16,996 bases of DNA, from positions 1 through 16,996 of the forward strand of contig JASEGY010000030.1 in the NCBI GenBank assembly GCA_030019105.1. The letters run 5' to 3'. Shown in pieces: positions 1 through 16,996 of the stretch (position 1 is its first letter; each line of letters begins with the position of its first letter). The notes beneath the pieces are model-generated. The model was not told the origin of the DNA. It did not search any database and saw only the letters and a list, made by a program, of their open reading frames with translations. The DNA is from a bacterium. GTDB taxonomy: Bacteria; UBA9089; JASEGY01. The position numbers and the translations under genes are program-made.

Positions 1-55
1 TCAGGGCCCAGACCTATCTTAAGAACGGCACCACCCTGCTTAACACGGCCGCAGT
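1..55. repeat. 55-bp direct repeat, copy 1 (identical to 379-433)
   Basis: Bases 1-55 are identical to 379-433, an offset of 378 nt or exactly one DUF11 unit. The match breaks down sharply after base 55 (many differences up to 134). The copy may extend further to the left, beyond the window. Confidence 0.95.
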
Positions 56-3000
56 GACTTCAGTTGATTCTGATGCCGGGTCTCACAGCGATACTGACTC
101 TGACACCCTGACCGTGGTTGAGCCTTACGCCGCCATCCAGGTGGACAAGGTGGCCGATGCCGGAACTATCACCGCCGGCGAAGAGGAGAGCTACCATATT
201 ACCGTGACCAATTACGGCAATGCCGGCCTGGGCACTGTCACCCTGGTTGATACCTTAGACACGACCGGTCTGGTCTATGTTGAGGCCGAACCGGCCTGGA
301 CAGCCTCCTCGGATACCCAGTGCACCTGGACAATCGGCTACTTAGCTCCGGGCGAGGCCTACGAGATAAGACTGACCGTCAGGGCCCAGACCTATCTTAA
401 GAACGGCACCACCCTGCTTAACACGGCCGCAGTCACTTCAGTAGATTCTGATGCCGAAGTTCACAGTGACCGAGATGCAGATACCCTGACCGTCACAGAG
501 CCTTATTCGGCCATAAACATCCAAAAGACAGCCTCTCATGGCAAGATCGAGACCAATAGGGAAGAGTCCTATACTATTACGGTAGAGAACATCGGCCGTC
601 AACCCCTGACGAATGTAGTAGTGACCGATACCATCCCAACCGGGCTCAATTATATCTCCTCTGATCCGGTCGGAGACACGAGCGCTTTACCCATAATCAG
701 GTGGACAAGCACCGAGATTCCGGTCCTGGCATCTCTCATGCCAGGTCAATCAATAGAGATGAGACTGACTGTCCACGCTGATCCTGACCTGACCGATGGC
801 GCTTTAATTACTAACCTGGTTGATGTAACCTCATTAGATGAGCAAAGCGATACCATCGCTGATGCTGCTGAGGCGGTCATCGAAGTAGTAGAGCCTATGG
901 CCTCGATTGATGTGGAAAAGACGGCGGTTACCGGGATGATTATTCCCGGTGAGCAGGTGACTTACACCATTACCGTGCTTAATGACGGCAGTCAGAATCT
1001 GACTGATGTTACGGTGATTGACACCCTGCCGGCTGGTTTGACTTATTATTCGACGACCTTTGATTCTGATACGGTGACGCATCCGGCTGGTCTGATCTGG
1101 CAGATAGCCGGCCTGCCTATCGGGGCCTACGAAGAGATTCGGCTTACGGTCAACAGTGACAGTGATGTGGCTGCTTACGGAGGAACGACGACACCGACCA
1201 ACTTAGTCGTGGCTGTAGGCACAGACGAATCCGGTGACATTCAGACCGATACGGCCACCGAGACCTTACCCTTAAAGATCAAACGGGCCTCCATCAACAT
1301 TGAAAAGAGCGCGGTCCAGGGAGTAGCGGTGATAGGAGAAGAAGTCAGCTATATCCTGACTATTACCAACAACGGCGATCAGGTTCTTTCGGGAGTTGAG
1401 ATGACTGATACCTTCAGCCGGGGGTTAAGTTTTGGAGAGGCTAATTATGATCCGGCCGTAGTTACCTTCATAGGAGCGACTAATGATACTGCTGCGGCCA
1501 ACACTTGCGCTTTCCGTATGGCCGATTCGTTTAGACCGGGCGATATAGAAGAAATCCGGCTGACTTTTACTATCAATGAAGACCCGACCCAGGTTGATGA
1601 CCCGGTAGTCAACTTAGTTACCATTACGTCCTTAGACGAATCAGCCGGAATTGTGACGGATAATGCCGGGGAAACCGTTGGATTGACCATACCGAAGCCC
1701 TCGATACAGGTGGAAAAGACGGCGACAGAATCGGTTGTGCCGCTGGGCAAAACGATTACTTATATCCTGACTATCATTAACGATGGCTCCCAGAAGCTAA
1801 CCAACCTGACTGTTGTCGATACTATCCCTCGCGGGTTATATCATCGCACTTCCACCTACGATGAGGTGGTATTTGACACCTTTATTCAGACAGCCACTAC
1901 CCTCCAGTGGGAGTCGCCTCCCGGTTATGAATTTGTGCCAGGGACTATTCATGAAATAGAGGCCATCTTTGACATTGACAAGAATCCCAACGAGGTAGGT
2001 GATACACCTACTCAAACGGTAATGAATGCAGTCACCGTTTCCGGTTACGACCAGGCGAATGATTTACAGGAAGATACAGACCGCTTGACTTTGGTACTGG
2101 GCATTCCGCAGCCGACGATAGATGTCCAGAAGGTAGCCTCCCAGAGTGAGATTGTCCTGGGTGAACCGGTCACTTATACCCTGACCGTAAGCAATATTGG
2201 CGGACAGGAGATAAGAGACTTAGTTATCTACGAAGATGTACCGCCAGGGTTGACCTTCCTCAGCGCTCAATTTGATGCGAACAACTTAGACTTTAACGAC
2301 AGCGCGGCCAATCCAATCTGGACACTTGACAGCGTGAACAGTGACACGGTCTTTATGCCGGGTGAGAAGGAAGAGATTCGGCTGACTTATAGGGCCAGTA
2401 AGAACATAAATGATTACGCCAACCCGAATACGGTAGAGAATACTGCCTGGGCTACCGGTTACGATCAGGCCGACATCCTGCGGGCCGATACGGATACGGA
2501 GGTGCTGCCTCTGGTGGTTTCCAAGGCGGCCCTGGATATTGAGAAGGTGGCGGCCCAGTCCTTAGTTGTGCCGGGAGAGCTGGTTACTTATATCCTGACC
2601 GTGACCAATAACGGGGAACAGGATATGACCAATGTGGTCATTACCGAACCAAGCCTGATTAGCCAGGGATTGAGATTTGTTTCCTCTGAGTTTGACAGTA
2701 ATAATCTGGCCTACGACGGCCTGGTGAATGGGAATTACCAATGGCATGTAATCGGCAATTTTGAGGCCCACGAGATAGAGACCATCCGTCTTACCTTTGA
2801 GGCCTCTTCTGATTACGACCTGGTGCCTGTTGAGGTGATCAATATCGCCTCAGTGACCGGAGTGGATGAATCCGGCAATAATGTCTTTGACAATGACCGG
2901 GAATCCTTGCCCAGGAAGGTGAAAGGGGCCGGCTTTGATATTGAGAAGGTGGCCTCAGCCGGGGTGATCGTGCCAGGAGAGCAGATCACCTACACCCTGA

Positions 3001-6000
3001 TCATAACCAATATCGGGGATCAGAAACTGACCCAGGTGGTGGTGACTGAGCCTATCCCGGCCGGGCTGACTTATCACTCTTCAAGCTATAATCCAACTGT
3101 GTCTGAAACAAGAAGCGCTGCCCAGATAACCTACACTGTGGCTGAACTTCCCGTAGGCGGGTTTGAGCAGATCAGGATTACCTTTAATACTTCGGCCAAC
3201 ACCAACGACTACAGACTGCAAAATGGCCTGGTAGTTAACTCAGCAACCGGTACCGGCTTAGATGAAGGCGGCAACTCGATCACCGGCGGCTCTGCCCTGG
3301 AAGAATTGCCTCTCCAACCCAAGAAAGCCGGTTTTGACCTGGAAAAGATTGCCAATGCCGGGGTAATTGTTCCCGGAGAAGGAATCAGCTACACCCTGGT
3401 AGTGACTAATACCGGACGGCAGACCTTGACAGAGGTGACGATCACTGATCTTATTCCGAGCGGGCTTACTTTCCACTCGGCCTCCCATGATCTGAGTATA
3501 AGCAGGACAGTCACAACGGATCAGGTGGTCTTTACCATCTTTGAACTGGCGCCTGACGCCTTTGGAAATATCCGGCTTACCTTTAATACTGACCCGGATG
3601 TAGGGACTTATCGTCTGGTTGACCCGTCTGAAGATTCTGTGGTCAACACCATCACCGGCACGGCCCTGGATGAATCCGGCAACTCGGTGGCCGGTGACCC
3701 GGCCACGGAAGCCTTACAGCTTCAGGTCAAGAGCGCCGGGTTTGATCTGGAAAAGATGGCCACCACCGGGGTAATCGTTCCGGGTGACCCGATCAGCTAC
3801 CTCATTGTCGTAACCAATACCGGTAAACAAAATCTAACCAATGTTGTGGTTCACGAACCCATTCCGGCCGGTCTGAGCTATCAATCCGCCTCTTACGACG
3901 CCAGCGTAGCTGAAACCGTCTTACCAGATAAGGTAATCTTTACCATCGCCAAGCTGCCCATGCTGGCCTTTGAAGAGATGAGGGTCACGTTTGGAACCGA
4001 TTCCAATATCAATAATTATGGTCTGGCTAATCCTGCGACTGATTATGTGATCAATGCCGTAACCGGTACAGGTCTTGACGAATCCGGCAACATCGTCACT
4101 GGTGATAAGGCCCAGGAGTCCTTGAGGCTCCAGACCAAAGGCGCTGGCTTTGAGATCGAAAACGTGGCCACCTCAGGTAAAATCATTCCTGGTGAACCGA
4201 TTACATACATTATTACGGTTACTAATACCGGGGATCAGGCTTTACACGACCTGGTCATAACCGAACCCATCGCTGATGGTCTGATCTACTCCTCATCCAC
4301 CTTTGATTCGAGTGTATCCGAACAAGTAACCACGAAAAATATCATTTACACCATTAAGGACCTTCCGGTAGGCGGTTTTGAACAGATTCGGCTGACCTTT
4401 GATTCTGAGGCGAATGTCAATCTCTTTAACCTCCTCAATCCAGCCACCAATCCGGTTATCTCCAGGGTGACCGGTACCGGCCTGGATGAGAGCAATCAAA
4501 AAGTCTCTGGTGGAATCGGGCTCGAAGAACTCCTCTTAGCGATCAAGCGGGGCAGTGTTGATATTGCGGCTAAAGCCACTTCCAATACTATTGTAACCGG
4601 CGGAACAGTTGATTATCTGATCACGGTGAAAAATACTGGAAACCAGAAATTAAGCGGTGTCGTTATCAGGCAAGTCATTCCACCCGGCCTGACCTACGAT
4701 GATAAGGCCTCCTTCTATGATTCCAACAAGATAAAATTAGTCAGTGTCTCTGAGGATAAGGTTATCTGGAAAATGAAAGACGGTGTCATCCTTGAGCCGG
4801 GTGAATTAGAGCAACTCAGGGCCGGCTTTGCGGCTTCCTCTTCTGAAGATGACTTTGAACTCACCATGCCGGACCATGATGTGGTCAGCACAGTGAGTGT
4901 AACTTCGATAGATGAATCAGGCTTGGCAGTGACTGACCAGGTCTCGGAATCCCTGTCCCTGAAAGAAGCTAAAGCAGCCATTAATATTGAGAAGATGGCG
5001 GCCCAGGGTGAGGCCTACGTCGGAGGCGAGGTTACCTACAGCCTGACCGTAACCAATATCGGCGATCAGCCCCTGCACGAGGTTAAGGTCAGCGAGACTG
5101 CACCTCCTGGTCTTACCTACGAGGCCAGTAAATATGATTCGGCTAATGTAAACTTTACCGGCACCACAGAGTCTCCGAAATGGAGTATAACCGGCAACTT
5201 TAATCCGGGTGAGATAGAAGATATCCGGGTTACCTTCCGGATCGATCCTGATCCGACTAAGGTGGCTGACCCGATTAGCAACACGGCTTCGGTTACTTCA
5301 CTGGATGAGTCTAACGATGTGATTGCGGATGCAGACGAAGAAAGCCTGCCGGTTAAGATTCCGAAGGTGGCCGTTGACATTACCAACACGGCCTTAGATG
5401 AAGCGGTCTATCCGGGCGAAGAAATCAGCTATCTGATCCAGGTCACCAATACCGGTAAGCAAGTTTTGACGGATGTGATTATATCTGAACCGGTTCCGCC
5501 CGGGCTGAGCTATGTCTCATCCAGCTTTGATAAAGACAAGCTGGTCTTTGTCGGCACCCCGGAGGCCCCGGCCTGGCAGGTCATTGCCCCGCTCGAACCA
5601 CAAGATTTAGAAGAGATCAGGGTCGTCTATCTGGCGGATACCAACCCGGATAACATCACTGATCCGATAGAGATTACAGCCAGGGTGACGGCTGTTGATC
5701 AAGCCGGCAATGAGGTTACCGATCAGCAGACAGAAACACTTCCGCTTAATGTCCCTGAACCCTCTATTCAGGTGACAAAGACCTCTCCCCAGTCAGCCGT
5801 AGTAGCCGGGCAGGAGGTGGTCTATTTCCTGACAGTCAGAAATGACGGTAATCAGGATTTGACCGGCATCAATATCAGCGACCGGATACCGGAAGGACTG
5901 ACCTACGTTAGCTCGGAATTTGAAGAGGATGTGGTCTCCTTTACCGGCCCGGAAGCCAATCCGGACTGGCAGGCCGAGCCGGCCTGGCGGGCCGAGCCGG

Positions 6001-9000
6001 CCTGGCGGATTGACTCCTTAGCCCCAGGCGAGGTGCATGCAATCAAGCTGGTGCTCTTAGCGGATTCCAATGCTACCCTGATCGATGATCCGGTGATAAA
6101 TGGGGTCGAGGTCACGGCCCTGGATCAGGCCGGGCAGGCCATTACTGATTCTGCCCGAACGAGCCTGCCGCTTCAGGTCCCGGCTTCCAGTATTCGCATC
6201 CGGAAGCTGGCCGCGCAAGGGGTGGTTATCCCCGGAGAAGAAGTGATCTACCTTATTATGGGGGCGAATGATGGGAATCAACAACTCCACGAGGTAGTCA
6301 TCACCGAGGATGTCCCGGTTGGTCTGACCTACCTAGAAAGCAGCTTTGATTCAGAGAAGATAGAATTTACTGGCACAGCCGATGCCCCGTCCTGGCGTCT
6401 CAAGGAAATCTTTGGCATAGGTGGATCAGAGCAGATCAGGGTCAGATTTATGGCTGATGCTAATTCAAAGAACATCCCTGATCCGGTAACCAACCATGTC
6501 CAGGTCAGGGCCAAAGATGAATCAGAGATAGAGATCAGTGATCTGGCGGATGAATCCCTGCCGCTTCAGGCAGAGGAGTCCCGGATAGATGTGGAGCTTG
6601 TCTCTACCCAGGGCGTGATTATCCCTGGCGAGCCGATTACCTATCTAATAACCGTAATTAATAATGGTGACCAGGCCCTGTCCGAGGTTCAGGTTACTCC
6701 TGATATTCCGGCCGGGCTGACCTACCAGAGCAGTCAGTTTGATGAGACCGTCAGTAGGGGTTTGATTAATCAAACCCCTACCTTCACTATCCCTGACCTG
6801 CCCATTGGTGGTTATGAAGAGATCCGGATCACCCTGACCACAGATCCCAATGTGGACACCTACACCTCTGATCCGGTCATAATCGCGGTGACAGCAACCG
6901 GCGTTGACGAGGCCGGGGATTCGGTCAGCGATACTACTGAGGCCGGTCTGCCGCTTCAGATCAAGCGGGCCAATATCGACCTTGAGAAGACGGCGACTGA
7001 ATCGCTCATTATCCCTGGAGAATATATCAGCTACATTCTCACGATCACCAATAACGGCAACCAGGAACTGACCGACGTGATGGTGACCGAAGAGGTGCCG
7101 GCCGGTTTGACTTACCTTGACTCTCAGTTTGATAAGATCCATGTGATTGAACTGGGTAATATGCAGTGGTCGATTGCCTCGCCCTCCCAGGCGCGCCTGT
7201 TTAAGCCGGGTGAAGTGGAGACCATTCGGGTCAGATTCTTAGCCTCTTCCAACCCGGCCTTGATCTCTGATCCGGTGGAAAATATCGCGACAGTCACGGC
7301 CAGGGATGAATCCCGGCGCGAGGTTCAGGATTCGGACGATGAGTTGGTTCCGCTCAAGGCCACCCTGAGCAAGCTGGAGGTCTGGAAGACAGCAACTACC
7401 GGGGTGCTTATCCCTGGTGAACCGATCACTTACCTGCTTACTGTCCTCAATGCCGGAGACCAGGAATTGCACAATCTTACAGTAGTCGAAGATATTCCGC
7501 CAGGGCTGAGCTACCTGCGTTCCGGCTTTGGTCCGGGAACAACCCAGCCTGATCCGGCCATACCTGCTTACCGGATCGACCGGCTCTCGGTTGGCTCGTC
7601 TCAGAAAATCTGGATCACCTTCAACACTGATCCCAACACCAATAACTACGCTTCGGATCCGGTCTTGAACACGGTAACGGCTTCCGGCACCGATGATGCC
7701 GGTGAAGTCATCACGGCCAGCGGGATTGAAGAACTGCCCCTCCAGGTGAAGCGGGCCAGGATAGATATCGAAAAGGTAGCCACTACCGGGGCCATCAAGA
7801 CCGGCTCACCCATTACCTATCTCTTGACGATTATCAACAACGGCAATCAGGACATTACGGATGTGGTTATTACCGAGGATGTGCCGCTGGGTCTGACCTA
7901 TGCTGCTTCTCATTATGGCAGCAACGTCACCTTTACCGGCACGGCCGGCTTCCCTAAATGGACGATTGCTTCACCCAACCAGGCGCGCCTGTTTGAGGTA
8001 GGCCGGATTGAGCAGATCAGGGTCACCTTTGAAACTGATATTAATAGAAATCACTACGCGCCTGACGCCGAAGGCCGGGTGCTCAATACTGTCTGGGTAA
8101 CCGGGTTGGATGAATCCGGTGAGCAGGTGGGAGACCTTTCCACGGAAAGACTCCCGCTCCAGGTACCCAGGGCGGCCATTGATCTGGAAAAGACAGCCAC
8201 TGGCATGGCCACCCCCGGCCGGTACTTAGCCTATACCCTGACCGTAACCAACATCGGTATTCAGGCGCTATCGCCGGTAACTGTGACTGACCGTCTGCCA
8301 GGCAGCCTGACCTATCTTTCCTCTGATCCATTAGTGATCTCTATCAGCCGCGATCCGGGAACCGGCCTGACTACCCTTATCTGGAAATTCAGGCAAGGGG
8401 CTAAAATCACCGGTCTCATGCCCGGTGAGTCAAAGGAGATCAGCCTGATTGCCAGGGTGGATTCGAACCTGGCTTTAGGCGAGACCATAGAAAACGTGGC
8501 TGACGTTACCGGTATCGACGAACAGGGTCAGCCGGTAACCGATCAGGATGATGCCAGATCTGAGGCATACACGGCCATGCTTGACCTCCGGAAGACAGCC
8601 GATCTCTCTTCAGCCAAACCAGGGGATGTCATTACCTATACCCTGCTTTACGCTAATAAGGGTGATATTGTGGCCACGGATGTAATGATCCTGGATCAGG
8701 TTCCGGCCGGCACAAGTTATCTGCCTGGAACCATCACTGGAAAAGGGGCCTACGAAGAGGGCAAGAACTTAGTTTCCTGGCATATCGGGAATCTGGAACC
8801 AGGCGAAAGCGGTGTGGCTACTTACCGGTTAGTGGTCAATCCCGGACTGGTTGACGGAGATAAGATACCCAACACAGCCACCATCTATTCCAACGAGACT
8901 GAGGCAGAGGAGAGTAATGAGGTTATCATTCCTATTACAACCATTGGTCTTAACATCCAGAAGCAGGTGGATAAATCTGTGGCTACGGCCGGTGACATCC

Positions 9001-12000
9001 TGACTTACACCCTCAGGTATTGGAATGATTCTCAAAATACCCTGACCGGCGTGACCGTAGCCGATGTCATTCCGGCACGTACGGTTTATTTGCCCGGCAG
9101 CGCCACCGGCGCCGGCTCATACAACCCGGGCAAGGCCACCCTCACCTGGTATATCGGGGACCTTGGTCCGGGTAGATTGGGCGAGGTTCGATATCAGGTA
9201 ACCATCAGATCTGATGCCCGGGATGGGGACTGGATCACTAATACCGCCCTGATCAGCAGTATTGAGAGTGGCGGGCAGCAAAGCAACGAGGTGGTTACCT
9301 CTATTACTGCCCCGGAGGAAGGCGGCCTGTGGATAAACAAGGCCGTCTCGGCTGAAACGGCTGAAGTGGGTGATGAGATCACCTATCAGCTCAACTTAGG
9401 CAATCCTTCCCGGATACCGGAAGAAGACGTGGTAGTTACTGACCAGGTTCCTGCCGGCTTAGAATACATCTCAGGCTCGGCCGGCCACGGAGGTATCTTT
9501 AATCCCAATACCAGGATAATCACCTGGAATCTGAAAACCCTCTGGTCTGAAGGCAGCGAGACCATCTCTTACCGGGCCAGGGTAGGCGCCGGCCTGGCCG
9601 GGCAAATCGTGAGAAATACGGCTGAACTGAGTTCCCGACACGTGGTTTCTGTGCTGACTAATGAGGTTCAAACCTACATCTATCCTGAGGAAGTGGGCCT
9701 CATTGATGTGGATAAGAGAAGCTCTACCGGTTCGGTTGAGCCGGGTGGGGTGATCAGCTATTCTATCCTTTACCGCAATCTGGGGCGGTCTTCGGTCAAT
9801 AACCTGGTAATTACCGATCCTCTGACGGATCAAGTGACTTATCTGACCGATAGCGCCTCGGCCGGAGGCCTCTATGATCCATCGACTCGAACCATCAAAT
9901 GGGAATTCCCGGCTGTTGCTGGCGGAGAGAGCGGTCTGGTCAGCTTCCAGGTGCGGGTAAATAAGGATGTGCCGCCGGGAACAATTATCGGGAACGAGGT
10001 TAAAGTTGAAGCTGATGAGTTAGACAAACCGGTTATTGACGGGGTTGGTGTGGGAGTCAGCCTGGCCGAGCTCAGGATCAGAAAGGATGTAGATAAAGAC
10101 AAGGTTGGCCCGGGCGAGGAATTAAGATATACCCTCTTCTACTGGAGCAGTGGGAACACCCCATTAACCGGGGTAACTATTACGGATGCGGTCCCTGATT
10201 ACACCACCTTCAACTGGGTGGATGAACAGGGTGTTTATGATAAGGCCACCAACACCATTACCTGGTCAGTGGGCGGCTTGACCCCCGGCGGGTTTGGGGA
10301 TGTGAGCTTCGGCGCGGTGGTAAATACCGAGGTGCCCAATGGCACCTGGATACTCAATACCGCCCGGATCGAATCTGATCAAACTGAACCGGAAGAAAGC
10401 AACAAGGTGGTGACTACCTTTATCCCGCCTGAATTACCGGGTATCTATCTGGAGAAGGCCGTGGATAAGAGCTTAGCCCAGGAAGGCGAGGTGCTTACCT
10501 ATACCCTGACCTACACCAATTCAGCCCGTAGCGCCCCTGAAACCAATGTGGTTATTACCGATAAGCTGCCTGACCTGGTGGAATATATGACAGGAACGGT
10601 TACCGGCGGCGGCAGATACGACCCGGCGAGCCGAACTCTAAGCTGGCCGATTGGCACTGTCTGGGCCGGCCAGAGATCTTCTGTCAGTTGTCAGGCCAGG
10701 GTAGTCGAGGGTTCAGCCGGACATATTATTCCCAATGACGCCAGGATCACCGGAGATAATACCCTGCCTGAGGTGAGTAATACCGTCTTTACCACGGTGG
10801 GCAGGCTTAACGTGGCTGAGCTGAATATTAACAAGACGGCGGATGTGGGGGCGGTTGAATTCGGCGATACCATCACCTATTCCATTTCTTACCGGAATGT
10901 AGGCAACAGCCCGACTACCCAGACGATTCTGGTAGATACCCCTCCGGAATGCACTGAATATATCCCGGGCACGGCTTCAGGTAATGGGAGTTATGACCCA
11001 ACCAGCAATCTAATTACCTGGGAGAGAGGAACCCTGGAGCCTGGCCAGGGTGGAGTAGTCACTTATCAGGTCCGGGTCGTTTGTGAACTTACGGCCGGAC
11101 AACTAATTCAGGGTGAGGCTACCTTGGACAGCTTAGAGACTGACCCTGTATCTGCCGATGCGGTAGTGGCTTACAGCCGGATCAAGCTCAAGAAACAGGT
11201 CAACAAATCTGAAGCTGTGCCAGGGGAGGAGATCGCCTACACTATTCATTACTGGAATTCAGGATCAGCCTTCTTGACTGATCTGGTCATTACCGACACC
11301 CTGCCGGATCGGACCAGCTTAGTAGAGGTCGGAGAAGACGGCGGTTATGATCCGAAGGCCGGCTTAGTTACCTGGTCGATTGATGAACTGGGGCCTGGCG
11401 GTTACGGGATGGTTACTCTTAAGGTGCGAATAGATAAGGGATTATCGGGTGGCCTGCCCATCATTAATACCGCTCAGATCGGCGCCCCGGCGATTGACCT
11501 GCCGGTTATTGGCCAGGCCACCTCGGTGACCGTTATTGCGGCAGAAAAACCGCAGCCCTTTATCCTGAAAGAGGTAAATACTGAGTTTGCCTCGCCGGGA
11601 GATGTGCTTACTTACACCCTGAATTACCGGAACTTCTCCCGTGCTTCTGAAACAGGGGTGGTGATCACTGATAAACTGCCGCCGGAGGTTACTTACCTGC
11701 CAGGAAGCGCCACGGGAGAGCAGGGGAGCAGAGGGGCAGGGGAGCAGAGGTTTACTTATGAGAATAATACTTTAAGATGGGAGATCGGGCTCCTTCCTGG
11801 TGATGCCAGGGATAGCGTCAGTTACCAGGTGAAGGTAAAGGCCGGAACCCTGGGCAAGACGATCCGGAATGTGGCCTCTCTGGAGGGCCGAGCCGGCCTG
11901 GCGGGTGAGGCTATTGGCACGGTCATCTCTAACGAGGTGCGCACCTACTCACAGGGCCTGGTTGATCTGGCCATTGACAAGATAGTCGATGTCTCTACGG

Positions 12001-15000
12001 TGGAATTGGGTGATACGGTTACTTACACTATTTTCTATGGAAATACCGGTAATGCCGGGGCCACAGAAGTGGCCTTAGTGGATGAGATTCCGGACGGTTT
12101 GACCTACGTCCCCGGCAGCGCCTCTTCCGGAGGGATACACGGTGTCAGCCCCGGGGCCATTGCGGCTAAGTATAAATATGCCAGATACCAGGGGGCGGTT
12201 GCGCCAGTACTGGCCTATCATGCCCCGGAGAAGGAAGAAAACGAGGCCATCCTGTGGGAGGTTGGCAAACTGGCCCCTGGTGAGGGCGGCAGCTTTATCT
12301 ACCAGGCAGTAGTAACCAAAGACCTTACCGCCCGGGGTGAAGTGAAAGAACCGGCCACGATCTATTCCTTAGAAACGGAACCGAAACAGGATGAAGAGCC
12401 GATTGTCTTTTCTGCCCTGAAGCTCTGGAAAAAAGTGGACAAGACCCAGGCGGCCCCCGGCGAGGAATTGACCTATCGTATCCACTTCCAGAATAGGGGG
12501 GCGTCTAAATTGACCGGGGTAGTATTGATCGATACTGTGCCGGGCGGCTATGTAATTTATCAGGAAAGTGATCCGGCCGGGAGCTATGATTCCAGGACAG
12601 GTGTTCTTTCCTGGTCATTAGGTGACCTCCAGCCTGGTGAATACGACTTTGTTACCTTTAAAGCGACCATCAAGGAAGGGGTGGCTGAAGGGACAAAGAT
12701 TACCAATCAGGCCCGGATTACGACACCTGATCTGGATCAGTCCCTCTTTGCCAAAGCAGTCGCCGTAACTACGATCACCGCACCCTTGCCGCAAATCGGT
12801 ATCTGGATAAAGAAACAGGTGGATAAATCCGAAATAGCCCCGGGGAATGTGCTTACCTACATCCTGAATTACGGCAATGCCGGCCGAAGCCCAAGACTGG
12901 CCGTAGTCATTACGGATCAGCTTCCTTACCGGACAGAGTTTATTACGGAAAGTGATCCCGCAGCCGTGTACGAGTCCGTTAGCCAGACCTTGAGATGGAA
13001 TCTGGGTACCCTGACCCCTCAAAGCCAGGGTAGTCTAAGCTATCAGGTACGGGTAAAAGAGGCTGTGCCGAATAACGAGGTGATCATCAATGACGCCCTT
13101 ATCCAGAGCCAGACGACTATTCCTCAGCGGAGTAATGAGGTGCGGACCATTGTCCGCTATCCGGGCATAGAGATCAGTAAGGGTGTTTATCCGGATGGGG
13201 CTTACCTTGGCGACATAGTTGACTACACGGTAACGATCAAGAACAAGCGGGCCGGGGATGCCTTCTCCTGCGTGGTGGAAGATGCCATGACCCCCGGCCT
13301 GACATATAAGCCGGCCACAACCACCCTGCAGATCGGAGACGGCAGGATTACAGACTTTGTTGATCCCCAGGGTGAGAATCCCTATCGCTGGAACTTAGGA
13401 ATGATCAAAGGGTATTCCACGGTTACCTTGAGGTACAAGGTGCTGGTAACGGCTGAGGCCCCTGAGAGTGTGGATACCAATACGGTGACTATCATTGGTA
13501 AAGATATTTCCGAGAACACGATTTACGATCAGGCAACAGCCGATCTCTTAGTCATCAAGCCCAGGTTGACCATCAAGAAGAGCGCTTCGCGGCCGTCAGC
13601 TAAGCTGGGTGATGTGGTCACCTACACTATTGAGATCAATAATATCTCGGCCAGAGAGATCAAGGAAGTAGAAGTAGTTGACGAGGTGCCGCCAGGGTTT
13701 ACGGTTCTTCGAGAGACAATAGAGCCTGAGCCGGCTAATGAGAAGAGTCCTTTTATCTGGAAGCTGGGTGATCTGGTGGCCAATAGCCGGAAGACGATTA
13801 TCTATCAGATAGTTATCGGAACCAATGCCGTGGCCGGCCTCAACGAAAATCTGGCGTCAGTCAGGGGTCGAGATCTCCTGGGAGGCGAAGTAACAGCCGG
13901 CCCGGTCATTGCCCCGGTCAATGTAGCAGCCGAGGTCCTGCCCGGGCGGATACTGGGCTGTGTGTTCTTAGACTGCAATGGAGACGGCCGGCCGGATACG
14001 GGAACCAAAGGGGTATCAGGAGTTACTATTACCCTTGACGACGGACGCTCGGCAGTAACAGGCTCGGCCGGTTGCGCCACCTTTACCTCAGAATATGGTG
14101 ACCATGCGGTCATATTAGATGAGCGAACCCTGCCGAAGGGATTTGTCCTGACGAAAGAGGGAGATTATTCCCGCTTTGTTTACGTGCTGGAGGGCGGTGA
14201 GGCCAGGGTTAACTTTGGCGTCTGCGGCTCGTTAAGCCTGGGCTTGAGCAAAGAGGGAGGAAGAGATAAAGTTAAACCGGATGAGACCATTACTTATACC
14301 ATCAAGATCAAGAACCGCTCCGATGCCGATTGTTTCGATATCCAGGTGACTGACCAATTACCGCAAGGATTTGTCTACCAACCTGGAACAACGACTATTA
14401 ACGGTAAGACTGTTCCTGATCCGGAGGAAGGTTTGTGGAAGATAGAAGGATTAGAGGCCCATCGCAATATCGAGCTTACCTACCAGGTCAAAGCCACATG
14501 GGAGGCCGTCTCTAAGATAAACGTCAACACCGCGGCTTTAACGGCCAGAGATGAATTGGGCACCCGGATAAGCGCCGGGCCGGTTGAGGCTGAGATGGAA
14601 CTGCTTGTGCCTATGCCGGCCATGGTCATTACTAAAACGGTGGGTTATTACCCACCCTACAAGGCAGACAAAGTTAAGGCCGCCCCGGGAGACATAGTCG
14701 AATACACCCTCACGATCAAAAACGAGGGTGACGGGGGCCGAGCCGGCCTGGCGGCGGCGGCGAACTCTGTCCTGATTGATACCTCCGCCAACGGCTTCGA
14801 GTATCAGCCCGGGACAACAACCATAGATGACGTAAGTGGGACAGACCCGGTAGTAGACTCAGTGTTGACTTTCAACTTAGGCACCCTTCACGAGGAGTCA
14901 ACCAGGATTGTTAAATACCGGATGAAGATAGGTGCGCAAGCCAAAGAGGGCCTGAACCAAAATGCGGCTGTAGTCAAGGGAGAATACGGTCGAGGCAGAC

Positions 15001-16664
15001 CGGTGAGTTCCAACGAGGCCAAGGCTGAAGTCGAGGTCATCTATTCCAGGCTTTCTATAGCCAAGTCTGTGGCCAGCGTAGAGCGAGCGCCGCTTAAGGT
15101 TCTTATCCTGCGGGGAGTACTCTTTGATACGGCTAAAGCCACTTTGCGACCGGAGGCATTTCCTGCCCTGGCTGAGGCCGCCGAAACCCTGCGGGCCTAC
15201 GCGGATCGCAAAGTGCGAATCGAGGGCCATACCGATATTCGGCCCATCCGGACTGAGGAGTTCCCGTCCAACCAGGAACTGTCCGAGGCCAGGGCAGCCG
15301 CGGTGCTCAATTACTTAGTTAAGGAAGAGGGCATTGATCGAGCCGGGTTGACCTCGGCCGGTTATGGCCCGGATCGGCCGGTGTTCCCCAATGATACCTT
15401 AGAGAATATGCAGTTCAACCGCCGTACCGAGATCATCATCCTCGACGAATACGTAGAAGGCAAAGAACCTGAATCCGCAATCCCGGGTACCCCCGAAGTG
15501 GGTGTGCAATCCGCAATCCAGGAGGTTCAGTCTGGCAGCAAAGTCACTTACCAGGTAGAAGTAAAATACACCGGGCTCGGTTCAGTATCCGATCTGATGA
15601 TCGAGGACATCCTGCCGGCCAGATTAAAATATCTGCCCCAGAGCAGCCGGATAGACGGCAAACCTGTCCATGACCCGGAGATAGCAGATGGCAGACTTAT
15701 CTGGAAGGATATTACTTCCTACTTCTCACTTCCCACTTCCTACTTGATTTACCAGGCAGCGGTTGTTGGCGGTGAAGGCGAAGAGCTGACCAACCAGGCC
15801 TGGGTAATGGCCTATCGCGACCCGGCTAAGACAGTCAAGATCGAGGCTGGTCCGGCTAAATCAACGGTCAAGATTGAAGGGGCAAAGATAGAGATGCGAA
15901 GGGGGATCAAGAAGATCGAGCGAAGGCCATTGCGGGTCATTAGCCTGGGGGGAGTGCTCTTTGACACGGCCAGGGCCACCTTGCGGCCGGAGGCATTCCC
16001 TGTCCTGGCTGAGGCAGCCCGGGCCATTCGGGAAGAAGCCGGCCGGCTGATCCGAATCGAAGGCCACACTGACAACCGGCCTATCCATACTTCCCAATTC
16101 CCCTCCAATCAGGAATTATCTGAGGCCAGGGCAGCCTCTGTCCTCCACTGGCTGGCTGAACAGGAAGGCATCGAAAGAGAGAGAATGACCTCGGCCGGCT
16201 TCGGCTCTGACCGTCCGGTAGTTCCCAACGATACCCCTGAGAATCTCCAGAAGAACCGCCGGGTAGAGATCATCATCACAGCCGATTTCCTCCCAGGCCA
16301 GGAGCGGGAAGAAGACCTGCGCCAGGGCGACAGGATCACCTATCAGATAGCCGTCGAATACCCCGGCACAAAACCGCTTTCTGAGATAAAGCTAATGGAT
16401 ATCCTGCCTTCCGGCCTGACCTATCTATTAGGGACAAGTAACTTAGACGGATCAGCCGTGCCGGATCCTCAAGGAGAAGAGGAATTAACCTGGGAGATCG
16501 GAAATAAGGAGGGTAGTTTTAGCCTTACCCTGGGCTATCAGGCTGAGGTAAAAACATCTGCTATTTCTTTAACAGCGATTAAAGCGGGCGAATCAAAACT
16601 AACGGCGAGGACAAAGGAAGGAAAATCACTGGAGGCTACACCAAAAAAGACCAGGGTAAGATAG
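1..16664 (+). CDS. Giant DUF11-repeat surface protein with two nested OmpA/MotB-like peptidoglycan-binding domains (5' partial)
   Basis: One uninterrupted frame runs from the left edge (first full codon at 3) to TAG at 16662-16664, giving 5,553 visible residues. The true start lies upstream: codons before the GTG at 54 already encode a repeat end identical to that at 381-431. In order, the protein holds the tail of one DUF11 repeat, 35 full DUF11 repeats (135-13943), an SdrD_B/Cna_B-like domain (13944-14228), two more DUF11 repeats, and two DUF11 repeats each split by an OmpA-type domain. The recurrent DUF11 signature is I-x-[IVL]-x-K near the start, then [PG]-G-[ED]-x-[IV]-x-Y, N-x-G and P-x-G-L-x-Y. 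Cysteine is rare. No beta-barrel, LPXTG motif, C-terminal transmembrane helix or type IX sorting domain is visible; the protein ends in basic residues. DUF11 proteins are generally surface or secreted, and OmpA-type domains bind peptidoglycan. I infer a wall-anchored rod-like adhesin or surface fibre. The ligand and the export route are unknown. Confidence 0.93.
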   Translation, partial: RAQTYLKNGTTLLNTAAVTSVDSDAGSHSDTDSDTLTVVEPYAAIQVDKVADAGTITAGEEESYHITVTNYGNAGLGTVTLVDTLDTTGLVYVEAEPAWTASSDTQCTWTIGYLAPGEAYEIRLTVRAQTYLKNGTTLLNTAAVTSVDSDAEVHSDRDADTLTVTEPYSAINIQKTASHGKIETNREESYTITVENIGRQPLTNVVVTDTIPTGLNYISSDPVGDTSALPIIRWTSTEIPVLASLMPGQSIEMRLTVHADPDLTDGALITNLVDVTSLDEQSDTIADAAEAVIEVVEPMASIDVEKTAVTGMIIPGEQVTYTITVLNDGSQNLTDVTVIDTLPAGLTYYSTTFDSDTVTHPAGLIWQIAGLPIGAYEEIRLTVNSDSDVAAYGGTTTPTNLVVAVGTDESGDIQTDTATETLPLKIKRASINIEKSAVQGVAVIGEEVSYILTITNNGDQVLSGVEMTDTFSRGLSFGEANYDPAVVTFIGATNDTAAANTCAFRMADSFRPGDIEEIRLTFTINEDPTQVDDPVVNLVTITSLDESAGIVTDNAGETVGLTIPKPSIQVEKTATESVVPLGKTITYILTIINDGSQKLTNLTVVDTIPRGLYHRTSTYDEVVFDTFIQTATTLQWESPPGYEFVPGTIHEIEAIFDIDKNPNEVGDTPTQTVMNAVTVSGYDQANDLQEDTDRLTLVLGIPQPTIDVQKVASQSEIVLGEPVTYTLTVSNIGGQEIRDLVIYEDVPPGLTFLSAQFDANNLDFNDSAANPIWTLDSVNSDTVFMPGEKEEIRLTYRASKNINDYANPNTVENTAWATGYDQADILRADTDTEVLPLVVSKAALDIEKVAAQSLVVPGELVTYILTVTNNGEQDMTNVVITEPSLISQGLRFVSSEFDSNNLAYDGLVNGNYQWHVIGNFEAHEIETIRLTFEASSDYDLVPVEVINIASVTGVDESGNNVFDNDRESLPRKVKGAGFDIEKVASAGVIVPGEQITYTLIITNIGDQKLTQVVVTEPIPAGLTYHSSSYNPTVSETRSAAQITYTVAELPVGGFEQIRITFNTSANTNDYRLQNGLVVNSATGTGLDEGGNSITGGSALEELPLQPKKAGFDLEKIANAGVIVPGEGISYTLVVTNTGRQTLTEVTITDLIPSGLTFHSASHDLSISRTVTTDQVVFTIFELAPDAFGNIRLTFNTDPDVGTYRLVDPSEDSVVNTITGTALDESGNSVAGDPATEALQLQVKSAGFDLEKMATTGVIVPGDPISYLIVVTNTGKQNLTNVVVHEPIPAGLSYQSASYDASVAETVLPDKVIFTIAKLPMLAFEEMRVTFGTDSNINNYGLANPATDYVINAVTGTGLDESGNIVTGDKAQESLRLQTKGAGFEIENVATSGKIIPGEPITYIITVTNTGDQALHDLVITEPIADGLIYSSSTFDSSVSEQVTTKNIIYTIKDLPVGGFEQIRLTFDSEANVNLFNLLNPATNPVISRVTGTGLDESNQKVSGGIGLEELLLAIKRGSVDIAAKATSNTIVTGGTVDYLITVKNTGNQKLSGVVIRQVIPPGLTYDDKASFYDSNKIKLVSVSEDKVIWKMKDGVILEPGELEQLRAGFAASSSEDDFELTMPDHDVVSTVSVTSIDESGLAVTDQVSESLSLKEAKAAINIEKMAAQGEAYVGGEVTYSLTVTNIGDQPLHEVKVSETAPPGLTYEASKYDSANVNFTGTTESPKWSITGNFNPGEIEDIRVTFRIDPDPTKVADPISNTASVTSLDESNDVIADADEESLPVKIPKVAVDITNTALDEAVYPGEEISYLIQVTNTGKQVLTDVIISEPVPPGLSYVSSSFDKDKLVFVGTPEAPAWQVIAPLEPQDLEEIRVVYLADTNPDNITDPIEITARVTAVDQAGNEVTDQQTETLPLNVPEPSIQVTKTSPQSAVVAGQEVVYFLTVRNDGNQDLTGINISDRIPEGLTYVSSEFEEDVVSFTGPEANPDWQAEPAWRAEPAWRIDSLAPGEVHAIKLVLLADSNATLIDDPVINGVEVTALDQAGQAITDSARTSLPLQVPASSIRIRKLAAQGVVIPGEEVIYLIMGANDGNQQLHEVVITEDVPVGLTYLESSFDSEKIEFTGTADAPSWRLKEIFGIGGSEQIRVRFMADANSKNIPDPVTNHVQVRAKDESEIEISDLADESLPLQAEESRIDVELVSTQGVIIPGEPITYLITVINNGDQALSEVQVTPDIPAGLTYQSSQFDETVSRGLINQTPTFTIPDLPIGGYEEIRITLTTDPNVDTYTSDPVIIAVTATGVDEAGDSVSDTTEAGLPLQIKRANIDLEKTATESLIIPGEYISYILTITNNGNQELTDVMVTEEVPAGLTYLDSQFDKIHVIELGNMQWSIASPSQARLFKPGEVETIRVRFLASSNPALISDPVENIATVTARDESRREVQDSDDELVPLKATLSKLEVWKTATTGVLIPGEPITYLLTVLNAGDQELHNLTVVEDIPPGLSYLRSGFGPGTTQPDPAIPAYRIDRLSVGSSQKIWITFNTDPNTNNYASDPVLNTVTASGTDDAGEVITASGIEELPLQVKRARIDIEKVATTGAIKTGSPITYLLTIINNGNQDITDVVITEDVPLGLTYAASHYGSNVTFTGTAGFPKWTIASPNQARLFEVGRIEQIRVTFETDINRNHYAPDAEGRVLNTVWVTGLDESGEQVGDLSTERLPLQVPRAAIDLEKTATGMATPGRYLAYTLTVTNIGIQALSPVTVTDRLPGSLTYLSSDPLVISISRDPGTGLTTLIWKFRQGAKITGLMPGESKEISLIARVDSNLALGETIENVADVTGIDEQGQPVTDQDDARSEAYTAMLDLRKTADLSSAKPGDVITYTLLYANKGDIVATDVMILDQVPAGTSYLPGTITGKGAYEEGKNLVSWHIGNLEPGESGVATYRLVVNPGLVDGDKIPNTATIYSNETEAEESNEVIIPITTIGLNIQKQVDKSVATAGDILTYTLRYWNDSQNTLTGVTVADVIPARTVYLPGSATGAGSYNPGKATLTWYIGDLGPGRLGEVRYQVTIRSDARDGDWITNTALISSIESGGQQSNEVVTSITAPEEGGLWINKAVSAETAEVGDEITYQLNLGNPSRIPEEDVVVTDQVPAGLEYISGSAGHGGIFNPNTRIITWNLKTLWSEGSETISYRARVGAGLAGQIVRNTAELSSRHVVSVLTNEVQTYIYPEEVGLIDVDKRSSTGSVEPGGVISYSILYRNLGRSSVNNLVITDPLTDQVTYLTDSASAGGLYDPSTRTIKWEFPAVAGGESGLVSFQVRVNKDVPPGTIIGNEVKVEADELDKPVIDGVGVGVSLAELRIRKDVDKDKVGPGEELRYTLFYWSSGNTPLTGVTITDAVPDYTTFNWVDEQGVYDKATNTITWSVGGLTPGGFGDVSFGAVVNTEVPNGTWILNTARIESDQTEPEESNKVVTTFIPPELPGIYLEKAVDKSLAQEGEVLTYTLTYTNSARSAPETNVVITDKLPDLVEYMTGTVTGGGRYDPASRTLSWPIGTVWAGQRSSVSCQARVVEGSAGHIIPNDARITGDNTLPEVSNTVFTTVGRLNVAELNINKTADVGAVEFGDTITYSISYRNVGNSPTTQTILVDTPPECTEYIPGTASGNGSYDPTSNLITWERGTLEPGQGGVVTYQVRVVCELTAGQLIQGEATLDSLETDPVSADAVVAYSRIKLKKQVNKSEAVPGEEIAYTIHYWNSGSAFLTDLVITDTLPDRTSLVEVGEDGGYDPKAGLVTWSIDELGPGGYGMVTLKVRIDKGLSGGLPIINTAQIGAPAIDLPVIGQATSVTVIAAEKPQPFILKEVNTEFASPGDVLTYTLNYRNFSRASETGVVITDKLPPEVTYLPGSATGEQGSRGAGEQRFTYENNTLRWEIGLLPGDARDSVSYQVKVKAGTLGKTIRNVASLEGRAGLAGEAIGTVISNEVRTYSQGLVDLAIDKIVDVSTVELGDTVTYTIFYGNTGNAGATEVALVDEIPDGLTYVPGSASSGGIHGVSPGAIAAKYKYARYQGAVAPVLAYHAPEKEENEAILWEVGKLAPGEGGSFIYQAVVTKDLTARGEVKEPATIYSLETEPKQDEEPIVFSALKLWKKVDKTQAAPGEELTYRIHFQNRGASKLTGVVLIDTVPGGYVIYQESDPAGSYDSRTGVLSWSLGDLQPGEYDFVTFKATIKEGVAEGTKITNQARITTPDLDQSLFAKAVAVTTITAPLPQIGIWIKKQVDKSEIAPGNVLTYILNYGNAGRSPRLAVVITDQLPYRTEFITESDPAAVYESVSQTLRWNLGTLTPQSQGSLSYQVRVKEAVPNNEVIINDALIQSQTTIPQRSNEVRTIVRYPGIEISKGVYPDGAYLGDIVDYTVTIKNKRAGDAFSCVVEDAMTPGLTYKPATTTLQIGDGRITDFVDPQGENPYRWNLGMIKGYSTVTLRYKVLVTAEAPESVDTNTVTIIGKDISENTIYDQATADLLVIKPRLTIKKSASRPSAKLGDVVTYTIEINNISAREIKEVEVVDEVPPGFTVLRETIEPEPANEKSPFIWKLGDLVANSRKTIIYQIVIGTNAVAGLNENLASVRGRDLLGGEVTAGPVIAPVNVAAEVLPGRILGCVFLDCNGDGRPDTGTKGVSGVTITLDDGRSAVTGSAGCATFTSEYGDHAVILDERTLPKGFVLTKEGDYSRFVYVLEGGEARVNFGVCGSLSLGLSKEGGRDKVKPDETITYTIKIKNRSDADCFDIQVTDQLPQGFVYQPGTTTINGKTVPDPEEGLWKIEGLEAHRNIELTYQVKATWEAVSKINVNTAALTARDELGTRISAGPVEAEMELLVPMPAMVITKTVGYYPPYKADKVKAAPGDIVEYTLTIKNEGDGGRAGLAAAANSVLIDTSANGFEYQPGTTTIDDVSGTDPVVDSVLTFNLGTLHEESTRIVKYRMKIGAQAKEGLNQNAAVVKGEYGRGRPVSSNEAKAEVEVIYSRLSIAKSVASVERAPLKVLILRGVLFDTAKATLRPEAFPALAEAAETLRAYADRKVRIEGHTDIRPIRTEEFPSNQELSEARAAAVLNYLVKEEGIDRAGLTSAGYGPDRPVFPNDTLENMQFNRRTEIIILDEYVEGKEPESAIPGTPEVGVQSAIQEVQSGSKVTYQVEVKYTGLGSVSDLMIEDILPARLKYLPQSSRIDGKPVHDPEIADGRLIWKDITSYFSLPTSYLIYQAAVVGGEGEELTNQAWVMAYRDPAKTVKIEAGPAKSTVKIEGAKIEMRRGIKKIERRPLRVISLGGVLFDTARATLRPEAFPVLAEAARAIREEAGRLIRIEGHTDNRPIHTSQFPSNQELSEARAASVLHWLAEQEGIERERMTSAGFGSDRPVVPNDTPENLQKNRRVEIIITADFLPGQEREEDLRQGDRITYQIAVEYPGTKPLSEIKLMDILPSGLTYLLGTSNLDGSAVPDPQGEEELTWEIGNKEGSFSLTLGYQAEVKTSAISLTAIKAGESKLTARTKEGKSLEATPKKTRVR
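379..433. repeat. 55-bp direct repeat, copy 2
   Basis: Partner of 1-55. It encodes the end of R1 (RAQTYLKNGTTLLNTAA). Most neighbouring units differ at many silent sites, so this block was copied or converted more recently than the others. Confidence 0.95.
5973..6008. repeat. Perfect 18-bp tandem duplication in R15
   Basis: The unit gccgagccggcctggcgg occurs twice head to tail (5973-5990 and 5991-6008), encoding AEPAWR twice. R15 is 12 residues longer here than R14, which is exactly two units. A degenerate relative precedes it (ccggactggcag), and a 14/15 match encoding AEPAW lies at 285-299 in R1. Confidence 0.95.
6585..8177 (+). repeat. Two-domain super-repeat R17-R18 / R19-R20
   Basis: R17 resembles R19 (Y[TA]SDPV, TA[TS]G.D[ED]AG, LPLQ[IV]KRA). 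R18 resembles R20, and these two alone share IASP-x-QARLF before the PGE/VGR turn. The two units are 6585-7373 (789 nt) and 7374-8177 (804 nt), which suggests duplication of a domain pair. Confidence 0.65.
6754..6781. repeat. Perfect 28-bp palindrome in R17
   Basis: The arm gtaggggtttgatt (6754-6767) is followed directly, with no loop, by its exact reverse complement (6768-6781). It is translated as part of SRGLINQTPT. Sibling repeats R8 and R11 have the same protein length here but unrelated sequence, so the palindrome replaces residues and adds none. Domain homology does not explain it. Confidence 0.97.
11719..11750. repeat. 16-bp tandem repeat in R30
   Basis: Two copies of gcaggggagcagagg, each with one preceding base (11719-11734 and 11735-11750), differ only at that first base. 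Because 16 is not a multiple of 3, the copies are read in different frames, as EQGSR and then AGEQR. The loop between YLPGSATG and the W strand is eight residues longer than in R23 or R27. Confidence 0.9.
11885..11904. repeat. Dispersed 20-mer, copy in R30
   Basis: The 20-mer gggccgagccggcctggcgg recurs here, identical to 5989-6008 and 14735-14754. Here it is read as GRAGLA, a different frame from the AEPAWR copies. R30 is about six residues longer than R33 at this point. Confidence 0.93.
12138..12245. other. Insertion of about 30 codons in R31
   Basis: R31 has 49 residues between the Tyr of YVPGSAS and the Trp of LWEVG, where siblings have 19. The whole repeat is 450 nt against 360 for its class partner R28, a 90-nt excess. 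The extra segment is rich in Ala, Tyr and Lys (AAKYKYARYQGAV) and includes a 12-bp palindrome, gccagtactggc, at 12203-12214. No domain is recognised. Confidence 0.75.
13167..13943 (+). repeat. DUF11 block C, repeats R34-R35
   Basis: These two repeats (starts 13167 and 13566) share K-x-[AP]-TTT-like or EPEPA text before the W-x-LG strand and end with xGKD/xGRD followed by TA-rich strands. They resemble R36-R39 more than the preceding block, so a subtype switch occurs at 13167. They immediately precede the SdrD_B-like domain. Confidence 0.75.
13944..14228 (+). other. SdrD_B/Cna_B-like domain with Ca-binding-type loop
   Basis: This 95-residue segment does not fit the DUF11 pattern. It begins GRILGCVFLDCNGDGRPD and continues KGVSGVTITLDDG, the arrangement of SdrD_B domains (G.V..D.N.DG..D..E.G..GV.VTL.D). 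The DxNxDGxxD loop at 13971-13997 would be the calcium site by family analogy. The second half, including GCATF and VNFGV, fits the later strands. Four cysteines (codons at 13959, 13974, and within GCATF and FGVCG) are striking in a protein otherwise poor in cysteine, so disulfides are possible. It sits between R35 and R36 and may act as a rigidifying spacer before the anchor region. Confidence 0.75.
14639..14662. repeat. 24-bp hairpin-plus-tail element in R37
   Basis: The arms ggtgggt (14639-14645) and acccacc (14650-14656) flank a 4-nt loop and are followed by ctacaa. On the minus strand it reads ttgtagggtgggt, loop, then the other arm. It encodes the core of GYYPPYK. R37 has eight residues (24 nt) more than R35 and R36 between the strand-A Lys and the next Tyr, matching the element's length. 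Confidence 0.75.
14735..14754. repeat. Dispersed 20-mer, copy in R37
   Basis: Identical to the copies at 5989-6008 and 11885-11904, read as GRAGLA and followed by three further gcg codons (AAA). R37 is about six residues longer than R36 in this loop. Confidence 0.93.
15093..15443 (+). other. OmpA/MotB-type peptidoglycan-binding domain, copy 1
   Basis: This is an OmpA_C-like domain of about 117 residues, with GVLFDTAKATLRPEA, EGHTDIRPI, FPSNQELSEARAAAVLNYL, SAGYGPDRPVFPNDT and a final NRRTEIII strand. The residues that hold diaminopimelate in this family are present: the Asp of GHTD (codon 15234) and the Arg of EARA (codon 15291). The FPSN loop and the PNDTxEN ending are closer to MotB-type domains than to the short TDxxG form of outer-membrane porins. 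It should bind peptidoglycan and so anchor the protein to the wall. Confidence 0.92.
15472..15519. repeat. 12-bp direct repeat aatccgcaatcc in the OmpA1-DUF11 linker
   Basis: Copies at 15472-15483 and 15508-15519 are 36 nt apart. Each is itself 1.7 turns of the heptamer aatccgc. They encode SAI twice in the linker that makes R38 longer than R39. Confidence 0.8.
15714..15746. repeat. Heptanucleotide tandem repeat in R38
   Basis: Four full units and a partial one, acttcct, acttctc, acttccc, acttcct, acttg, run from 15714 to 15746. The 7-bp period shifts frame at each unit, giving TSYFSLPTSYL. Protein length here is close to that of R39, so it substitutes for sequence and adds almost none. Confidence 0.9.
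15888..16664 (+). other. R39: terminal DUF11 repeat split by a second OmpA-like domain
   Basis: IEMRRGIKKIE starts the repeat at 15888. The OmpA-like domain follows at 15930, and the DUF11 fold resumes at DLRQGDRITYQIAVEYPG (16314 onward). It ends with GYQAEVK and a lysine/arginine-rich tail before the stop. There is no further sorting signal after it. Confidence 0.8.
15930..16277 (+). other. OmpA/MotB-type peptidoglycan-binding domain, copy 2
   Basis: This aligns without gaps to copy 1 over 116 residues; I count 81 identities (about 70%). It contains GVLFDTARATLRPEA, EGHTDNRPI, FPSNQELSEARAASVL, SAGFGSDRPVVPNDTPEN and NRRVEIII. The ligand-binding Asp (codon 16071) and Arg (codon 16128) are conserved with the same 19-residue spacing as in copy 1, so both copies look functional. 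Confidence 0.92.
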
Positions 16665-16691
16665 TTACCATAAGGGAAGATAGGTGGTCTG

Positions 16692-16996
16692 TTAAGCACT
16701 TTCTACGGCAACGTCTGCTATTTTCTTGCGGAGAATAAAGAGAAAGCCAAGTGGTTCAGTAATCTGAATATTATTGTATCTACCACCTAAAGTGTCAAAG
16801 TGAGAATCATAAGTAATAAGATAATCAGCTCTTCCTGTTACTGCAGAAGCTAAGACTGTATCATCGTCAGGGTCTGCTGTAATGACAGGACAAATATCCC
16901 CGGATGTGAGAATAACTTCTTGTCCAAGAGTAAGAATGTGAGCTATAGTGGTTAAGAAAAAGATTTTGGGGTTGGCTATCCTTTGGAGTTCAGGCT
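16692..16996 (-). CDS. PIN-domain (VapC-like/COG1569-type) putative RNase toxin, C-terminal part
   Basis: Reading the minus strand from the right edge, an open frame of 100 codons ends at TAA (complement of 16692-16694). It has no start codon because the gene continues past the window, so a start-based ORF search misses it. The fragment contains PDDDTVLASAV, then ADYLITYDSHF, then a strand plus ITEPLGFL. This matches the C-terminal half of PIN_3/COG1569 proteins, usually written as DPDD..FLe.A..a.aDYivtgD..l followed by I.tP.eFL. PIN domains are Mg-dependent RNases of toxin-antitoxin modules. The acidic residues of the PDDD and TYDSHF segments would be two of the metal ligands; the N-terminal ligand is not visible. 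A cognate antitoxin, if present, would probably lie to the right, outside the window. The gene converges on the giant gene with 27 bases between the stop codons, and its sequence is visibly more A+T-rich than its neighbour. The fold is fairly certain; toxin activity is inferred. Confidence 0.8.
   Translation of the reverse strand, partial: PELQRIANPKIFFLTTIAHILTLGQEVILTSGDICPVITADPDDDTVLASAVTGRADYLITYDSHFDTLGGRYNNIQITEPLGFLFILRKKIADVAVESA

Follow-up and report, generated by a model that had tools for sequence, protein, structure and literature searches.

How can identical DNA come to be read as two different peptides within a single gene? The question is raised by contig JASEGY010000030.1 of the draft genome, labelled here G000, of a bacterium from a little-known phylum, whose positions 1-16,996 (the window, meaning the whole stretch analyzed) carry the same 20-mer at 5989-6008, 11885-11904 and 14735-14754, together with a one-mismatch tandem copy at 5971-5990. 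The repeated unit is an 18-mer, GGCCGAGCCGGCCTGGCG, which is probably a dispersed, non-autonomous insertion element of one bacterial genus. It is best read as a frame-neutral mini-element, a variant of the intragenic palindromic elements distinguished by its very small size.

Results

A Unit Multiplied in One Genome

The 18-mer is abundant in G000 (4,337,204 bases in 1,053 contigs, 95% complete), whereas absence from the rest of the genome would have counted against the sequence-only reading that first drew attention to it: 270 matches were found at ≤2 mismatches, 142 forward and 128 reverse, vs. 0 for a reversed-pattern control, and the 36-mer made of two units matched 110 times at ≤3 mismatches, the copy number in a draft assembly being probably a lower bound. 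Sixty relatives were scanned as well, namely one genome of the same genus (G001), 17 others of the phylum and 42 more distant ones. G001 has 5 matches to the 18-mer, the 17 other phylum genomes have none, and 17 of the 42 more distant genomes have 1-19, none of them exact among the matches listed and with reversed controls of 0-8; the 36-mer is present in 2 of 19 phylum genomes. A degenerate 36-mer, in a form that would miss the array of G001, retrieved no contig from the genome_contigs and viral_contigs collections, which may themselves omit G000. One site, in the TssM-like gene of locus L097, is occupied in both species; its unit is perfect in G001 and has three mismatches in G000, so that the family appears, from this sequence comparison, to be older than the species split. 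A single insertion, of three units (18 aa), is found in G001 only.

For a survey of arrays, 61 G000 loci (493,634 bases), chosen for holding matches and including the window, were searched for units at ≤3 mismatches. They contain 124 arrays with 233 units, 129 of which are perfect; 51 arrays are single, 47 double and 19 triple, with 5 of four units and 1 each of five and six.

Empty Sites in the Sister Species

Comparison with G001, over stretches totalling 1.77 Mb and covering about 57% of the length of that genome, placed both flanks for 43 of the 124 arrays, and at 20 of the 43 the flanks meet at zero net gap, with G000 carrying exactly 18n extra bases (n 1-4). At one such place G000 reads ttccttctttt[54 bp]gaaggtcggttt and G001 reads ttccttcttttgaaggtcggttt. 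At 20 unrelated sites, one to four whole units have thus been inserted at one point, the flanks keeping their net length. The 20 clean sites have no target duplication beyond a possible 1 bp, and the offsets at the 23 other mapped arrays range from -134 to +152 with no recurring small value as would come from a 2-9 bp duplication (-6 and -9 occur once each). A one-base duplication was initially suggested by an A at -1 that goes with an A at the array end, a signal that comes largely from 13 copies of one composite repeat (described below) and has a p value of 0.07 without them.

The inserts are visible in proteins as well. Insertions of at least 5 aa were listed, without bias toward the unit, from strand-collapsed alignments of 111 frames (43,276 alignment columns), giving 52 specific to G000, 31 of which hold the unit core; the lengths are multiples of six residues in 25 of these 31 vs. 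5 of the 21 others. The alignments gave 19 G001-specific insertions of this size, one with the unit peptide and 18 aa long. Ten host proteins were run against NCBIfam: HypF, MutS2, NuoF-type, UbiD family, IleRS, B12-radical SAM and XrtA-system deacetylase proteins exceed the cut-off, type VI sheath subunits and a nucleotidyltransferase fall below it, and one is without a match. Against solved chains the hosts show the same kind of excess as the window copies do against sibling repeats, the insert being an exact 6-residue gap in the NuoF-type protein and an exact 12-residue gap in RecQ, while the 18 residues in PriA fall inside a 22-residue gap and the epimerase insert lies within a gapped stretch.

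The Copies in the Window

In the window the 18-mer forms one two-unit array and two single copies, all within one reading frame, whose product comprises DUF11 repeats and two OmpA domains (domain scan of its last 1,783 aa). The sequence-only reading had reported the 20-mer at three loci with a tandem copy, had assigned the copies to two reading frames and had credited each single copy with six added residues and the tandem with 12. All of this is borne out: four matches at ≤3 mismatches compare with 0.01 expected from shuffles, the pair and the singles differ in phase (Table 1), and residues were counted by eye against sibling DUF11 repeats of the same protein. The unit at 11886-11903 gives 20 residues from N to the NEV/NTV anchors vs. 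14 in siblings, and that at 14736-14753 gives 26 from N to YQPGTTTI vs. 20 in the sole sibling having that anchor, an excess of six in each case; at 5972-6007 the excess is 12, ±1 as sibling spacing there varies by one. In the part of G001 that was searched, the window gene met distant DUF11/OmpA matches but no close orthologue, so that the three window sites come without empty-site proof of their own.

Unit Anatomy, Ends and Targets

The unit consists of a 5-bp hairpin, GGCCG-AGC-CGGCC, with TGGCG outside it. Folded as single-stranded DNA, the 18-mer has a predicted energy of -5.4 kcal/mol (z -1.4) and the 36-mer one of -14.2 (z -2.3), and stem variants that preserve pairing occur (GACCG/CGGTC, GGCCA/TGGCC, GGCTG/CAGCC). 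The ends of the inserts are locked to the register of this hairpin: away from the 124 canonical arrays, a unit in any of the 17 rotated registers (≤2 mismatches) was found at one locus, and since random copying from a tandem array would give rotated registers, the ends look specific. One array, at L095:6617-6694, has three extra bases between its units (a 21-bp period with a GCG spacer) and is still in frame.

The targets are short, weak and GC-rich; a G usually stands on either side, and their sequence is similar to the junction between two units. At 16 empty sites a G stands before the insertion in 12 and after it in 13, and against the junction CCTGGCG^GGCCG these sites score 5.4 of 12 matches vs. 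2.9 at control offsets, a value reached in 0 of 20,000 permutations. Hairpin or cruciform targets were considered and rejected, inverted-repeat stems being no longer there than at neighboring offsets (p 0.45 for the 16 empty sites, p 0.15 for 93 flanks).

Position in Genes and Reading Frames

Of the surveyed arrays, 121 of 124 fall in open reading frames (ORFs) 150 aa or longer, and each of the six frames occurs; 74 reading frames carry arrays in the tenth or so of G000 that was fetched. Among the non-composite arrays, the 107 in ORFs of 200 aa or more are spread over the six (sense 21, 21 and 20, antisense 20, 16 and 9; chi-square p 0.29), in keeping with the insertion that preserves frame whatever its phase proposed in the sequence-only reading. 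Because its length is divisible by three and no frame contains a stop, the unit leaves reading frames open. The unit is stop-free in six frames, as are 90% of its base shuffles and 16% of random genomic 18-mers; the stop-free state as an adaptation was rejected, since the shuffles are equally open. The earlier proposal of a frame-tolerant mini-element thus holds in the main, with the refinement that openness is mostly a by-product of GC content.

With ORF-based gene calls, predicted coding sequence, which makes up 82% of the DNA, encloses 118 of 124 arrays completely. A preference for genes as such (p 4e-5) was rejected, for it is gone once target composition is counted: among 96 non-composite, non-redundant arrays the coding share is 92 of 96 vs. 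the 91-92% expected from target-like sequence (p 0.11-0.19), so that the 18-mer neither prefers nor avoids genes. The same DNA supplied nine further repeat words for comparison, eight from a frequent-word list and one from the composite repeat; they serve as a contrast and not as a clean control, because some of the intergenic ones may be signals whose proper place is outside genes. Seven of them are 0-18% coding (for instance 0/50, 0/42 and 8/44 loci), two heptamer-type words are largely coding (23/33 and 5/6), and the core of the 18-mer is coding at 100 of 107 loci.

Discussion

How the Unit Might Be Placed

We propose that a hairpin-recognizing activity acting in trans would place each unit, and tentatively suggest single-strand hairpin transposition of the Y1/RAYT type as that activity. 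The unit ends in TGGCG, followed by G, and each insertion would in this way recreate its own target; arrays could then grow through re-insertion at the recreated target or by slippage, which is a likely source of array length, and the element would persist as near-neutral DNA within genes. A bolder version, which we regard as speculative, has an 18-nt hairpin (17 nt plus one site base) inserted precisely by a single-strand recombinase, forming arrays through its self-recreated target and colonizing genes in six frames at no detectable cost; it would perhaps be the smallest mobile DNA unit described.

Several observations weigh against an insertion element placed through its hairpin. Clean sites make up 20 of the 43 arrays mapped among 124, and further length differences lie near the other 23. 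The polarity of the change, gain in G000 and not loss in G001, rests on more distant homologues in few genes. With its short stem the hairpin has an unexceptional folding energy (z -1.4 for the unit); pairing is kept in 88% of cells across 40 distinct units, a value that 30 of 500 shuffles reach, and compensatory changes exceed shuffles only moderately, 11-30 of 500 reaching the five measures. Y1 genes that exceed the cut-off occur, without any copy of the 18-mer, in eight genomes of the phylum from other genera. Finally, a target that resembles the unit could also mean copying by microhomology without an enzyme.

This last point is the core of the main rival, which we hold to be possible but not probable: in microhomology-mediated template switching, a strand being synthesized at a GC-rich site would pair with an existing array, copy at least one unit and return, with no dedicated enzyme. 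The targets in G001 already resemble the unit junction, as such pairing would have it, and the G000 flank is more unit-like than that of G001 at -1 and +3 (discordant sites 5 to 0 and 5 to 1), as if the copy had run into the flank; however, these are the two strongest of 24 positions examined, and some others lean the opposite way. The single register of the ends, with one rotated locus vs. 124 arrays, and the absence of net gain or loss of bases in the flanks of the 20 clean sites also speak against it, and template switching alone leaves the multiplication of this one sequence in one species unexplained.

A second rival, akin to the hairpin-guided reading, takes the unit for an element like the repetitive extragenic palindromes (REPs), whose mover would be the one RAYT-like Y1 transposase that G000 has; this too we hold to be possible but not probable. 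The hairpin unit, the clusters and the lack of a long target duplication would fit, as would RAYT and REPIN passages in PMC3116915, and the one Y1_Tnp gene of G000 (Table 1) has no counterpart found in G001, with its 5 unit copies. A single contrast of presence and absence is not evidence of cause, however, and no unit flanks the Y1 gene, the nearest lying about 2.3 kb away; moreover, the GTAG/CGTC tag is absent from the unit on either strand and from the flank composition, and the 18-mer is intragenic rather than extragenic.

The other explanations fare far worse. Local minisatellite growth, by slippage within each gene and with no movement between genes, would account for tandem arrays of one period in sizes of 1-6, but more than 100 sites, spread over 74 reading frames, both strands and all six frames, carry the same 18-mer, for which independent origin is impossible, and 51 of the 124 arrays have one unit only; as an account of dispersal it is excluded, and we give it very little credence. 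An assembly or library artefact, brought to mind by a draft in 1,053 contigs of which several end in arrays, is just as improbable given the diverged and compensated variants, the copies in a separate sister-species genome including one shared site, and the exact multiples at the 20 clean sites. Inheritance of AEPAWR/GRAGLA as a piece of the DUF11 repeat, to which the confinement of all window copies to one repetitive protein might point, is the least credible of all and is refuted; it had already been dismissed in the sequence-only reading, rightly so, because the DNA is identical in different frames, occurs in unrelated host proteins and is absent from sibling repeats.

Relation to Described Small Repeats

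Of the described cases found, the closest are the Rickettsia palindromic elements (RPEs) and intragenic REPs. According to passages of PMC10969869 and PMC2996958, RPEs and the coding palindromes of Wolbachia and Methanocaldococcus are, like the 18-mer, palindromes in frame in many unrelated genes; the 18-mer shares this in-frame insertion into unrelated protein genes in 121 of 124 arrays and in its exact homologue gaps. RPEs are described in PMC10969869 as palindromic DNA of about 150 bp, each encoding a conserved peptide, whereas the unit studied here has 18 bp, six peptides according to frame, tandem multiples and single-position empty sites. Intragenic REPs of the GTAG and CGTC families, for instance in Opitutus terrae and Rickettsia conorii, appear in excerpts of PMC3733652 as small palindromes, some of them in ORFs including repair genes, that form clusters, the two super-families being defined by the GTAG or CGTC tag. 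Unlike the 18-mer, with 118 of 124 arrays wholly in predicted genes, these REPs are mostly intergenic and tagged. A REP/REPIN unit is a hairpin of 20-40 bp in high copy with the RAYT gene flanked by the repeat; here hairpin and high copy are present, the unit is 18 bp and the one RAYT-like gene is without an adjacent unit.

Miniature inverted-repeat transposable elements differ in having terminal inverted repeats and a target-site duplication, as opposed to an 18-bp unit of one hairpin without separate terminal repeats, and tandem minisatellites are confined to tandem arrays, whereas single units stand here at dispersed sites (51 of 124). The small dispersed repeats (SDRs) of cyanobacteria, which Elhai is said to have described in 2008, reportedly measure 21-27 bp. 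They are the closest in size and, like the 18-mer with its 20 zero-gap empty sites among 43, very small and precisely inserted, in a different host. A passage of PMC4390886 has SDR5 inserting within HIP1. PARCELs, as portrayed in part of PMC2996958, are likewise palindromic, coding, repeated DNA, but form repeat-protein domains, whereas the hosts of the 18-mer are unrelated globular proteins. The mitochondrial palindromes of Volvox occupy intergenic and intronic DNA only, apart from one rRNA module, in the relevant passage of PMC2670323. A literature search with the core sequence and three peptides matched a single paper, on mycobacterial genomospecies, and the two papers found on intragenic palindromes in candidate phyla, PMC2996958 and PMC8144416, do not concern this family as far as seen.

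The 18-mer shows that DNA has been inserted into the genes of a bacterial genus frequently and recently, whatever the frame or orientation; of the 52 larger insertions that set G000 proteins apart from those of the sister species, 31 are this unit. The clean sites amount to twenty natural before-and-after insertion experiments, and the unit is a defined substrate with which to look for what moves very small repeats, be it an enzyme or a copying error.

Table 1. Location of units and associated features in the window, G000 and G001
Feature	Location	Strand	Remarks
Two-unit array	window 5972..6007	+	Phase 2, AEPAWR AEPAWR; pair set in register
Single 18-bp unit	window 11886..11903	+	Phase 0, GRAGLA; +6 residues vs. 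sibling repeats
Single 18-bp unit	window 14736..14753	+	Phase 0, GRAGLA; +6 residues vs. preceding sibling repeat
Possible old, decayed unit	window 284..301	+	3 mismatches; AEPAWT (EAEPAWT); may be chance
Host reading frame	window 3..16664	+	Open at window 5' end; 5,553 aa; contains all window copies
Y1_Tnp (RAYT-like) gene	contig C175, 319-642; L100:51-693		Single in G000
Second repeat	L046, L052, L084, L085, L088, L089, L093, L095, L100, L101, L108, L113, L117, L119		G000
Second repeat	L062, L074, L133, L159, L168		G001; all five without unit
Third repeat, 18-mer at fixed point	L040:4834-4851; L095:3209-3226; L102:4970-4987; L113:3253-3288

Composite and Other Repeats

In 14 of the 15 G000 copies found of a second dispersed repeat, CGAAACYCGACGACCCGCMA^[18n]^GCGGGTGCCCCGAACYCGAA, the 18-mer sits at one and the same point; the G001 copies in Table 1 come from a search for the CGAAACYCGACGACCCGCMA..GCGGGTGCCCCGAACYCGAA pattern in 1.17 Mb, and such patterns would not catch diverged copies. 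Three orthologous places have the composite empty in G001 and filled in G000 (L046/L075, L085/L168 and L095/L074). Either this point is a favored target, or empty copies have been converted by filled ones. A third repeat, GGACTCTATCCCGACTG..GCCCAAAC, also has the 18-mer at a fixed point, and the three arrays that lie outside ORFs of 150 aa all belong to its four copies.

In the window, two further stretches of DUF11 repeats look like other inserts: one at 11715-11755, an apparent length excess rich in GGGGAGCAG (EQGSRGAGEQ), and an extra stretch, HGVSPGAIAAKYKYARYQGAV.., at 12140-12240. Further short repeat families in the G000 loci surveyed include AAACCTGGTTTCT (69 hits), AAGGCTAAAGCCT (50), AATTTCCAATTTC (54) and heptamers such as AATCCGC; HypF carries an insert of AAACCTGGTTTCT too, and so, by eye, does MutS2. 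The G001 stretches compared are dominated by different families, such as ATCGAGN heptamers (500 and 244 hits) and GCTGAACGGTTAC (136), so that repeat families turn over within the genus.

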